Shown here in pieces: positions 28,719-32,687 of a stretch of DNA of 64,000 nt; positions within the stretch are counted from its first letter, which is position 1, and the number at the start of each line of letters is the position of its first letter. Made by a program: the position numbers and the translations under genes. Under the pieces are notes generated by a model that was not told the DNA's origin, made no database searches, and saw only the letters and a program-made list of their open reading frames with translations. Source of the stretch: Halovivax gelatinilyticus. GTDB taxonomy: Archaea; Halobacteriota; Halobacteria; Halobacteriales; Natrialbaceae. The stretch spans positions 695,992 through 759,991 of the forward strand of contig NZ_CP101322.1 of NCBI RefSeq assembly GCF_024300625.1, in the 5' to 3' direction.

Positions 28719-29025
28719 GACGGCTTCCTCGACCGTGCCGGTCAGCCGTTTGTCCTGCTCGTCCGGACCGAGTGTCGTCGACGCGTTCAGGTGGACGACG
28801 TAGCCGGCGCCGTTTTGTGCGGGTGCACCCGCGGGGCGATTCCCTTCTGCGTCAGGACGGCGTCCGCGCCGCCGCGCGTGACGGCGTCGATCGTCGATCG
28901 ATATCTCTCAAACCGCGGACGGCACCAAGCGTGATACCGTGGTCCATCGGGACCATCAGGTAGCGATCGCCCGTACGAATGCGATCGAGGCGGGCGTCGC
29001 GTCCGGTTGTCCGTGCGTCGCTCAC
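28686..29025 (-). pseudogene. aroA': ADH synthase (archaeal class I aldolase-type), 5' fragment with frameshifts
   Basis: A GTG at 29023-29025 overlaps the trpA stop (GTGA) and begins [20 protein letters not shown], then [19 protein letters not shown], the start of 2-amino-3,7-dideoxy-D-threo-hept-6-ulosonate synthase. One base is missing near 28898, after which [19 protein letters not shown] and APRVHPH continue in a second frame. Another base is missing in the A-run complementary to 28813-28816, and [19 protein letters not shown], then [19 protein letters not shown], continue in a third. At about 28686 homology stops; the remaining ~160 codons, with the catalytic lysine region, are absent. 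The product cannot be functional. Position after trpCBA is where intact haloarchaeal genomes carry this gene, from memory. Confidence 0.9.
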
Positions 29026-29900
29026 GATCGATCACCCGGTACCGCTCGATCCGATTCGAGCGTCTCGGCGTCAGATTCTGTGACGCCCTCCTCGGCGCCC
29101 CGTTTCAACTCGGCGGCCGTCGACGCCAGGTCGGCCACCGGATCGTCGCTCGCCGCGGCCAGATCGACGAGCGCGCTGCCGACGATGACGCCGTCCGCGC
29201 CCGCCGCGACGATTTCGGCCGCGTGGCCCGGCTCGCTGACGCCGAATCCGACGGCCGCCGGGAGGTCGGCCCCGGCGACGCGTTCGACGCCCTCGTGGGT
29301 CGCCCGCGAGACGTCGGACCGGGCGCCGGTGGTTCCCAGCCGCGCCTGCACGTAGACGAATCCTCCCGACGTCGAGAGGAGCCGATCGAGGCGGTCTCCG
29401 GACGTCGTCGGCGCGACGATCGAGACGAGGTCGAGTCCGAACCGCGCACAGACCTCGCGCAACCGATCGGCCTCGGAGACGGGAAGATCGGGGACGATCA
29501 ACCCGGAAAGCCCGGCCTCGGCCGCGCGCTCGACGAACGGTCCGACGTCCGTCCCCGATTCCGACGGACCGTACTGCATGAGGAGGTTCGTGTAGGTCAT
29601 CACGAGCAACGGTGCGTCCGTATCGAGGCGCTCTATCAGTTCGAAGAAGGCCTCCGGCGTGGTTCCGGCGTCGAGCGCCCTGTTGATGGCCGCCTGGATG
29701 GTCGGCCCCTCGGCGATCGGCTCCGAAAACGGCAGTCCGAGTTCGATGACGTCCGCGCCGCCGCGATCGAGCGCTTCGACGTACTCCTTCGTCGCCGCCA
29801 GATCCGGATCACCCGCCGTGAGGTAGGTGATCAGCGCCGGGTGGTTCTCGCGGACGGCCGTCTCGATCCGGCTCTCGCGGGCGGTCGCGTTATCGGTCAC
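29022..29900 (-). CDS. trpA: Tryptophan synthase alpha subunit
   Basis: 292 residues. TrpA signatures are present: [11 protein letters not shown], the catalytic Glu in [12 protein letters not shown] (about residue 52), a counterpart of the catalytic Asp region ([10 protein letters not shown]), [12 protein letters not shown] and VGFGVSEP. It cleaves indole-3-glycerol phosphate to indole and G3P, channelling indole to TrpB. Both ends overlap neighbours by four bases (trpB stop, ADH synthase start), so the operon is tightly coupled. In place of the usual P-F-S-D-P motif this protein has P-F-S-E-P. Confidence 0.95.
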
Positions 29901-31228
29901 GCGTCGAACACCTCCACGTCCGGGGCGACGTCGAGATCGCGTCGATCGGTCTCCTCCAGGACCGTCTCCAGGTCCTTGTCGCCGCGTCCGGAGACCGTCA
30001 CGACGACGAGCTCACCGAGGGCGTCGCCGGGTTCGGCGTCCGGGCCGAAGGTCTCTTCCAGGTATCCGAGGGCGTGGGCGGACTCCAGCGCCGGGACGAT
30101 TCCCTCGAGCCGGGAGAGGCGATGAAACGCCGAAAGCGCCGCCTCGTCGTCGACCGATTCGGGGCGGACGCGACCCCGGTCGACGAGATCGGCGAGTTCC
30201 GGCCCGACGCCGGCGTAATCCAGGCCGGCGCTGATGCTGTGTGACTCGACGACCTGTCCGTCGTCGGTCTGGAGCAGCTTCGTCAGCGCCCCGTGGAGCA
30301 CGCCGTCCGTGCCCGTGCTAAGCGACGCCGAGTTCGGGGCGACGCCCGCGTCCTCGTCGACCCCGAGCGTCGATCCGCCCGCTTCGACCGCGACGAGGTC
30401 GACGTCGCCCGCTCGCTGACGTCGTCCGCTCGAATCGCTCTCGGCCCGTCTGTCCGAACCGCCATCGACGAACGCACCGAACGTCCCCATGGTGTTCGAT
30501 CCGCCGCCCGCACACGCGACGACGCTGTCGGGGAGCCGGCCGACCTCGTCGCGCATCTGGGCTCGGATTTCACGGCCGATCACCGACTGGAACTCGCCTA
30601 CAAGTGCGGGAAACGGGTGCGGCCCGACGACGGAGCCGACCGCGTAGTGGGTCGTCTCCACGCTTCCCGCCCAGTCGCGAAGCGTCTCGTTTATCGCCTC
30701 TTTGAGCGTGGCGCTGCCGGCGTCGACCGGCGTGACGGTCGCCCCGCTCATCCGCATCCGGTAGACGTTCGGCCGCTGGCGGTTGACGTCGGTGCGACCC
30801 ATGTAGATCTCGCAGGGGACGTCGAGGTGGGCGGCGGCCATCGCGGTCGCCGTCCCGTGCTGTCCGGCGCCGGTCTCGGCGATGACGCGCTCTTTGCCCA
30901 TGTACGTCGCGAGCAGGACCTGCCCGAGGGCGTTGTTCAGCTTGTGCGCACCGCCGTGAACGAGGTCCTCGCGCTTTAGGAAAATCTCGCGACCGTATCG
31001 CTCGCTCAGTCGGTCGGCCCGTTGGAGCGGCGTCGGTCTCCCGGCGAACGTCCGGAGGTGTGCTGACAATTCGTCTCTGAACCCCTCCTCGTTGTTCAGT
31101 ACGTATCGCTCGTAGGCCGATTCGAGTTCGTCCAGCGCCGGGACCAGCGCTTCGGGCACGTACTGTCCGCCGTACCGGCCGTACCGACCGATACGATCGA
31201 CCGATACGTTCGATCGACCGTCGGTCAC
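29897..31228 (-). CDS. trpB: Tryptophan synthase beta subunit
   Basis: 443 residues. The PLP lysine is Lys96 in [11 protein letters not shown]; phosphate-binding AGGGSNTMG follows near residue 243, and [11 protein letters not shown] near 117. It condenses indole with serine. The protein is longer than usual owing to an insertion of about 20 polar residues ([15 protein letters not shown]) after FGAFVD, a typical haloarchaeal surface-loop insertion. Four-base overlaps with trpC and trpA. Confidence 0.96.
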
Positions 31229-32076
31229 GCGGAATCGACCTCCGACCCGTCGTTCGCGGGAGCCGGTGAATCCGCGAGGCCGTCCGCGTCGACCAGTCGC
31301 CGGGTGTTTCGCTCGACGTCGCCGTCCATGATGGCACTCCCGACGAGGAGCGCATCTGCGCCGGCGACGCGCATCCGACGCACGTCGTCCGCCGTCGCGA
31401 TTCCGCTCTCGGCGATCACCGTCACACCCCGGAGTCGTCGGTCGAGCCGCCGATCCTCGGTATCGCCAGGACGATCGGTTCGCTCCGTTACGCGCTCGAA
31501 CGTCGAGAGATCGACCTCGAGCGAGGCGAGGTCCCGATTGTTGATCCCGACGAGTTCGGCCCCGGCGTCGAGCGCGCGGTGTAACTCTTCGCGCGTGTGA
31601 ACTTCGACGAGCGGCTGGAACCCGCGCGAGCGTGCGGCGTCGACCAATCGGGGAAGGTCGTCGACGAACCGGGCGATGAGCAAGACGAGGTCGGCGCGAA
31701 CGGCGTCCAGGTGGGCTTCAGAAAGCAGGAAGTCCTTCCGGAGCACCGGAACGTCGACGGCCGCACGAACCGCTTCGAGTGCCTCGAGCGACCCGCCGAA
31801 GTGTTCGGGCTCGGTCAGCACCGACAGCGCCGTCGCCCCGCCCGCGACCATTTCGCGAGCCAGCGCCGCCGGATCCGCCTCCCGGACGCCGTCGGTCGTC
31901 GGACTCGTCGGTTTCACCTCGGCGATCACCGGGACGCGTCCCTCACACGCTGCGCGCTCGATCGCGTCGGGAAGCGACCGGGGTGAGACGGACACCGTCC
32001 GATTCGCCGACGTCGATCGATTTCGAGCGGCCGCCAGGATCGATCGAACGGGCGGTGCGAGCTCTGTAGTAGTCAT
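31225..32076 (-). CDS. trpC: Indole-3-glycerol-phosphate synthase
   Basis: 283 residues with a TIM-barrel signature: [10 protein letters not shown] (catalytic Lys), [42 protein letters not shown] and VIAESGI. It closes the indole ring from CdRP. First gene of trpCBA; other trp genes (trpD, F, E, G) are not in the window, as in haloarchaea where they form a separate operon. The ATG at 32074-32076 sits 29 bases after the TATA-like box, so the message should be leaderless. Confidence 0.95.
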
Positions 32077-32080
32077 TAAC

Positions 32081-32110
32081 GTACATCAATGTACTGGTTT
32101 GTACATAAGC
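32081..32110 (-). promoter_or_regulatory. trpCBA promoter with TGTACA-like boxes
   Basis: The TATA-like GCTTATGTAC (minus strand, about 32101-32110) overlaps one GTACAT box (32101-32106, containing TGTACA with the base before it). Two more half-sites form the palindrome GTACAT-CA-ATGTAC at 32081-32094, over the predicted start of transcription. The archaeal tryptophan repressor TrpY of Methanothermobacter is known to bind TGTACA TRP boxes in such positions. A similar repressor acting here is an inference. Confidence 0.6.
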
Positions 32111-32225
32111 CTTCCGGAGGCCGTCGCTCGTTGCGGGTTTCGACCGATTCTCCCGCCTCACCCGTCGGTGAGCAGCCGCGCGGGACGGCCGAATATTCAA
32201 GACACTTGCCCCCTTCCGCCCCACC

Positions 32226-32687
32226 ATGGAAGACGCGGGAATTTACGCCGTCGAGTCGCCCTACCTCGAGCGGTTCGTCCAGGTGGGAATCGCCAGCGGA
32301 CGAGTCATCAGCGTCTCGTTCCCGCAACAACCGGCCGATGACGCCGACGACGACCACCCCGTCTTAGACCGGGTTCTCGAGTATCTGGACGGCGTCAACC
32401 CGGTCGAGTTTTCGGACGTCGAGGTCGCGCTCACCGTCCCGACCCACCAGCGCGCGGTCCTAGAGCGGGTGCGGTCGCTCGAGTACGGCACGCAGATCGA
32501 CGTTGCCGGACTCGCCGGCGTCACACCCGATCTCGACGCAAACGACGAGGACGATCTCATCGTGGTTCGGACGGCCCTCGACGAAAATCCCACGCCGCTT
32601 TTGATCCCCGATCACCGGGTGCGTGACGGACCGAGCGCCGCACCGCCACCGGTCGAACAGAAGCTTCGATCGCTCGAAGGGCTCTAA
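32226..32687 (+). CDS. MGMT-family alkyltransferase-like protein without the active cysteine
   Basis: 153 residues. The C-terminal domain follows the O6-alkylguanine-DNA alkyltransferase fold: the VRTALDENPTPLLIPDHRV stretch corresponds to the R-x-V-x-x-A-x-x-x-N-P...PCHRV active-site region. The acceptor Cys is replaced by Asp (PDHRV), so it should bind damaged DNA rather than repair it itself, like bacterial Atl proteins that hand lesions to nucleotide excision repair. TATA-like GAATATTCAAG (32191-32201) lies 29 bases before the ATG. Convergent with the next gene with a 4-base overlap. Confidence 0.8.
   Translation: MEDAGIYAVESPYLERFVQVGIASGRVISVSFPQQPADDADDDHPVLDRVLEYLDGVNPVEFSDVEVALTVPTHQRAVLERVRSLEYGTQIDVAGLAGVTPDLDANDEDDLIVVRTALDENPTPLLIPDHRVRDGPSAAPPPVEQKLRSLEGL

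Follow-up and report, generated by a model that had tools for sequence, protein, structure and literature searches.

Upstream of trpC in this haloarchaeal genome, three TGTACA-like boxes form an array phased to exactly one turn of DNA, which is very probably the putative switch of a TrpY-family regulator, judging by its distribution among the genomes compared. We consider it likely that the array is the operator of this haloarchaeal regulator at both trp operons and that it serves tryptophan-dependent repression, where binding, ligand, cooperativity and repression are what we infer from comparative sequence analysis.

The trpC promoter and its array

The window, i.e., the whole 64,000-nucleotide stretch of DNA that was analysed and to which positions refer, carries the trpCBA operon on the minus strand. 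A second operon, trpDFEG, lies approximately 110 kb from trpCBA. The genes and promoter elements in the window are as follows:

29022..29900, minus strand: trpA, tryptophan synthase alpha chain (PF00290, 1.6e-81)
29897..31228, minus strand: trpB, tryptophan synthase beta chain (PF00291, 3.4e-39), named from its place in the operon
31225..32076, minus strand: trpC, indole-3-glycerol phosphate synthase (IGPS), first gene of trpCBA (PF00218, 4.7e-66)
32080..32085, minus strand: box -8, TGTACG, covering the predicted leaderless transcription start
32090..32095, minus strand: box -18, AGTACA, 10 bp from either neighbouring box
32100..32105, minus strand: box -28, TGTACA, overlapping the TATA-like element
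32102..32109, minus strand: TATA-like element CTTATGTA; columns -33 to -26 are conserved in alignments
32111..32116, minus strand: BRE-like CGGAAG, presumed role; CGCAAG in most relatives

We take CTTATGTA to be the TATA box on the basis of the usual haloarchaeal promoter layout. An open reading frame of 153 residues (32226-32687), which had no Pfam match at E 0.001, lies divergent from trpC.

Read on the plus strand, the promoter contains GTACAT (32081-86), ATGTAC (32089-94) and TGTACA/GTACAT (32100-106), with GTAC cores at 32081-84, 32091-94 and 32101-104, exactly 10 bp from centre to centre. Relative to the trpC start codon (32076, minus strand) the cores are placed at -8, -18 and -28, and the array thus placed spans the TATA box and the predicted leaderless transcription start. 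The initial annotation had described three GTACAT/ATGTAC half-sites over the TATA-like box and the predicted start, which is confirmed here; their exact 10-bp phasing had gone unnoted.

With 246 copies of the core GTAC in the window, the expected number of exact phased triples is 0.0036 per window, or approximately 0.2 per genome. The exact triple was found once in the whole 3.7 Mb genome, at the trpC promoter. With one seen against ∼0.2 expected, rarity alone is modest, even weak, evidence, and it is conservation that decides. The strict pattern TGTACNNNNNNGTNCRT had eight matches in the genome, six of which lay away from trpC and had no promoter-like appearance when their short flanks were read by eye; two sites found with GTACATN{0,10}GTACAT resembled coding sequence, also by eye. 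No Rfam family matched the trpC promoter. The hexamer TGTACA is present eight times in the window (4393, 4976, 18150, 32100, 35173, 37153, 48510 and 58274, with the trpC copy at 32100) against 2.63 expected, a number reached in 1 of 100 shuffles.

Conservation of the array and extent of the regulon

Conservation was assessed in two sets of trpC loci that share species: a named set of 80 (the best 80 of 235 relatives) and a family set of 30 that counts the present genome among its members (the best 30 of 120 genomes matched). Each locus was scored at all its positions for TGTACA-like boxes at a given spacing. The best three-box site of the whole locus at 10 bp was the trpC promoter in 80/80 named loci (best 80 of 235) and 30/30 family loci (best 30 of 120), where chance would give 0.75 and 0.92, respectively. 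No other spacing in the range 7 to 14 exceeded 19.9/80 (best 80 of 235) or 21.2/30 (best 30 of 120). When the loci of both sets were aligned on the start codon, columns -40 to -4 were mostly conserved and those further upstream were not.

Across the trpC loci the three positions, -28, -18 and -8, are retained, and the degeneracy of the boxes is limited. In the named set (best 80 of 235) and the family set (best 30 of 120), GTAC is kept in 47/80 and 24/30 loci at the -28 box, in 29/80 and 26/30 at the -18 box, and in 60/80 and 30/30 at the -8 box, the last tally including one locus (L010) with a misassigned start. Loci that depart from GTAC mostly have GAAC, GTGC or GTAT at -28 and GTGC or GTCC at -18, a box that is degenerate in many genera. 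The boxes were also present, with some degeneracy, in all four other members of the genus that were fetched (L090, L091, L114 and L115); the initial annotation had named their absence from the trp promoters of close relatives as a refutation, and their presence extends from these four to the Halobacteria examined.

Boxes had likewise been anticipated at trpDFEG. The promoter of that operon in this genome has TGTACA, GGGCAT and GAACA in order, 10 bp apart, and in 30 family trpD loci, drawn from 39 genomes that matched, the best 10-bp array of the locus was the trpD promoter in 30/30, whether two or four boxes were scored. Other spacings gave at most 19.1/30 with two boxes and 10.4/30 with four; the value of 19.1/30, for two boxes at a spacing of 7, is fairly good and counts against the operator reading. 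The usual layout, from a tally in which 2/30 rows are anchored at the wrong place, is GTAC at 0, GNNC at +10, AGAC at +20 and GTAC at +30. The array at trpD begins downstream of the TATA box and extends across the start site and into the leader.

A profile (R1) was built from trpC arrays only, with duplicate sequences collapsed (74 of 110 kept) and L010 excluded for its misassigned start. Its best match was at the trp genes in 26/26 whole genomes, some of which had fed the profile: directly upstream of trpC in 24, upstream of trpD in one and between trpC and trpB in one. Several second-best matches were trpD promoters. In the genome studied here, R1 matched trpC only, the trpD promoter being too divergent for the profile; a strict trpC-type pattern had no match there either. 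Ten weak R1 matches in other genomes were inspected, two at trpD promoters (L301, L304) and eight with no trp gene within their 3-kb stretch, which were set aside. As far as these searches reach, the two trp operons make up the recognisable regulon. At two loci (L182 and L187, from G130 and G128) the array stands between trpC and trpB, the latter read by eye, as if trpB had a controlled promoter of its own. In G128, a molybdopterin oxidoreductase gene is preceded by three exact GTAC cores spaced by 10 bp (L303, ∼1527-1553), probably through chance.

Outside Halobacteria, 40 trp loci (585,699 bases) were sampled elsewhere in the phylum, and here the haloarchaeal profile R1 gave 11 matches, 10 of them upstream of the aligned start of the trp operon. 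Counted without a profile, and with ties for the best three-box site included, the best 10-bp TGTACA array lay upstream of the trp operon in a weighted 28.2/40 loci against 1.7 expected. This count incorporates two corrections to an earlier value of 22.5/40, namely the replacement of L295 by L343 (one truncated locus) and the addition of stretches upstream of trpB2, made because the first count had shown trpB2 promoters to fall outside the tested interval. TGTACA ranked first among the 64 palindromic hexamers; TATATA came next with 18.4/40, a score that probably reflects AT-rich promoters. When spacings from 6 to 24 were scanned over the same 40 loci, 10 gave 28.2, 20 gave 24.8 and all others gave 8.7 or less. 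The array sits at the front of the operon whichever gene leads it, be it trpC, trpD, trpE or trpB2. Five loci (L194, L204, L279, L289 and L290) have a TrpB2-like enzyme leading the trp operon and a phased array before its gene, the call being made with TIGR01415 for L194 and by similarity to L194 for the others.

The TrpY-family protein

The genome encodes one TrpY-family protein (174 residues, G000:C1:1427185-1427709, outside the window), located through a search of genomes for ACT domains. It scores 235.1 bits against NF053754 (TrpY_fam, NCBIfam), over the curated cut-off of 180, and thereby supplies the TrpY homologue for which the initial annotation had called. Matches to PF13840 and PF01842 in its C-terminus (residues 103-165) are weak and below their cut-offs; no Pfam helix-turn-helix model matched, and the presumed recognition helix was set by eye from alignments. 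A search for a solved structure of a TrpY relative found none (best E 0.39). NF053754 exceeded its cut-off in 144/146 genomes of the phylum, including 28/28 sampled from the order to which the window belongs. Among 14 control genomes, Haloferax volcanii and Methanosarcina acetivorans were over the cut-off, Lactococcus was below it and M. jannaschii had no match. Four of the 146 genomes (G159, G208, G217 and G242) have a TrpY-family match and no TrpE match at E 0.001, so that TrpY may serve other targets in these organisms or trpE was missed.

The gene is unlinked to the operons: trpCBA is approximately 700 kb away and trpDFEG 810 kb. TrpY was absent from the 142 trp loci checked and from ten chosen open reading frames near trp loci that were screened with Pfam; a 133-residue frame at L206 looked spurious. 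Over 34 trpY loci (33 distinct; Halobacteria, f15 and f21), own genome included, the trpY promoters showed no clear array, with best upstream scores of 7 to 11 of 18 and one lone TGTACA in L274. In one haloarchaeon (L270, family f12) trpY starts directly after a hisB-like frame, read by eye, hinting at co-transcription of the two. In two genomes of family f20, trpY adjoins the trp operon and is divergent from trpC; this gene opens a full trpC-D-F-E-G-B-A operon in L276, and in L277 the gene order agrees up to trpB, at which point the contig stops. This linkage ties the TrpY family to the trp genes, albeit in a branch without boxes: the trpY-trpC intergenic stretch has no GTAC and the TrpY there is of the DRK type, which suggests a different operator.

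The types are named from D-R-R or D-R-K read in the presumed recognition helix. In genomes with a DRR-type TrpY, the best TGTACA array lay upstream of the trp operon in 31/31 loci, comprising 25 in which every tied best site was so placed and six in which part of the ties were. Such an array was found in 0/7 loci of genomes with a DRK-type TrpY (f17, f20) and in 0/2 loci of f22 genomes, which had no TrpY over the cut-off (one weak match). Before the corrections the count was 25/31 versus 0/7 (Fisher p = 1.4e-4). In an unrooted tree, flagged for long branches, the DRK type forms a single fully supported clade, and the association therefore rests on few events, one split plus one absence, and not on 40 independent observations. 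Loss of the array and change of the helix may be a single event, to which the TrpY-less f22 is added. With this reservation, the association supports the suggestion that TrpY-type control is conserved across distant archaea, which at the level of the family is very likely, given how the array tracks the DRR type among the sequences sampled.

A proposed tryptophan switch

The proposed regulator is a protein of approximately 170 residues that presumably has a helix-turn-helix at its N-terminus and has an ACT-like domain at its C-terminus; its dimers, or a short oligomer, would bind two to four TGTACA-like boxes. Boxes one turn apart lie on the same face of the helix, suggesting dimers arranged side by side. 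At trpCBA, bound TrpY would cover the TATA box and the start site, and at trpDFEG it would extend from just past the TATA box via the start site into the leader. Tryptophan would bind the ACT-like domain, and the resulting complex would block TBP, TFB or RNA polymerase and switch both operons off. An array over the TATA box and start at trpC and over the start and leader at trpD suits a repressor in both cases. In the available text of PMC4162585, lack of aromatic amino acids induces trpCBA and trpD1FE1G1 of H. salinarum in early exponential growth, and expression is lower later. Regulation of the trpCBA promoter in Haloferax is said not to be tight (available portion of PMC13147458, citing Large 2007), which speaks against strict repression. 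Across the phylum, we lean on balance towards the phased TGTACA operator and DRR-type TrpY as an ancestral tryptophan switch, from methanogens to haloarchaea, that would have stayed with the trp genes as operons were split and reordered (trpC-, trpD-, trpE- and trpB2-first) and been lost or rewired once, with the DRK helix change.

An oligomer of the Lrp kind would also fit palindromic sites in phase; however, the array tracks the TrpY type in the phylum sample (31/31, 0/7, 0/2) and TGTACA is the hexamer of Methanothermobacter TrpY, which makes it quite unlikely that the array is bound by another regulator, such as the Lrp/AsnC-type LrpA2 (trh1) or a TrmB homologue, and that its association with TrpY is a phylogenetic coincidence. 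Such candidates have been put forward: withholding aromatic amino acids from H. salinarum induced LrpA2 14.9-fold, and the authors suggest that LrpA2 controls the synthesis of these amino acids (in the accessible part of PMC4162585), while the TrmB homologue HAH_0923 was proposed as a candidate for the trp operons of Haloarcula hispanica (in that of PMC10817205). It is very improbable that no dedicated regulator is involved and that the conserved bases are just the core promoter (BRE, TATA and initiator) of a leaderless gene. The -28 box does overlap the TATA box, all boxes lie less than 40 bp from the start codon, and TATATA arrays exceed background in AT-rich promoters (18.4/40), but the -18 and -8 boxes are conserved outside BRE and TATA, the trpD array begins downstream of the TATA box, and the signal for other spacings and palindromes is much weaker.

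TrpY might instead bind the array as an activator, or with chorismate or another aromatic amino acid as ligand. We judge this unlikely, since boxes over the TATA box and start site occupy the position of a repressor and the trp genes of H. salinarum rise when aromatic amino acids are withheld (PMC4162585, available text), even if, as far as the accessible texts go, the activator Tar acts on the same operons in T. kodakarensis and TrpY homologues vary in function (PMC6737238), and Haloarcula TrmB raises trp operon expression indirectly, with no binding near these operons (PMC10817205).

The TrpY operator proposed here is best compared with that of Methanothermobacter, where the TrpY consensus is TGTACA. 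The open papers searched did not yield this consensus printed together with TrpY, nor was a report of haloarchaeal TrpY operators recognised among them, most being covered by title and abstract. With TrpY/TRP-box control of trpEGCFBAD in M. thermautotrophicus, the present case shares a TrpY-family regulator (by NCBI model name), a TGTACA core over trp promoters (here those of trpC and trpD) and, likely, tryptophan-dependent repression, which we infer for this genome. It differs in that trpY is neither adjacent nor divergent to a trp operon and lacks clear boxes at its own promoter, and in that the array stands on two trp operons as strictly 10-bp-spaced boxes.

Within the available text of PMC6737238, Methanothermobacter TrpY also represses its own gene, and a published tree places the haloarchaeal homologues in a branch apart from it (MTH1654). 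"Same regulator" is therefore meant here in the sense of same family and not of orthologue. The same partial source describes TkTrpY (TK1227) of Thermococcus kodakarensis, a homologue 42% identical to Methanothermobacter TrpY that, unlike the proposed haloarchaeal TrpY, neither bound specifically to nor regulated its trp operon; homology alone is thus no proof of trp control. Tar (TK0271) of T. kodakarensis, like the proposed TrpY, regulates archaeal aromatic amino acid operons, but it is an activator with the site TGGACA-N8-TGTCCA and another distribution (PMC6737238, in the part available).

The accessible text of PMC6737238 regards TrpY branches including that of the haloarchaea as unexamined and their function as beyond estimation, and that of PMC10817205 allows that additional factors may control the trp promoters. 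A direct regulator of haloarchaeal trp genes is lacking in the cited papers; this analysis names a candidate protein and an exact operator, and with them a prediction of which archaea use that operator and which do not. The DRR and DRK types offer a two-clade natural experiment for recognition between operator and helix, and users of tryptophan-linked promoters and trpA markers in Haloferax may be helped. The kind of regulation is a known one; the operator, phased exactly and wider than expected, makes the role of the haloarchaeal TrpY branch directly testable.
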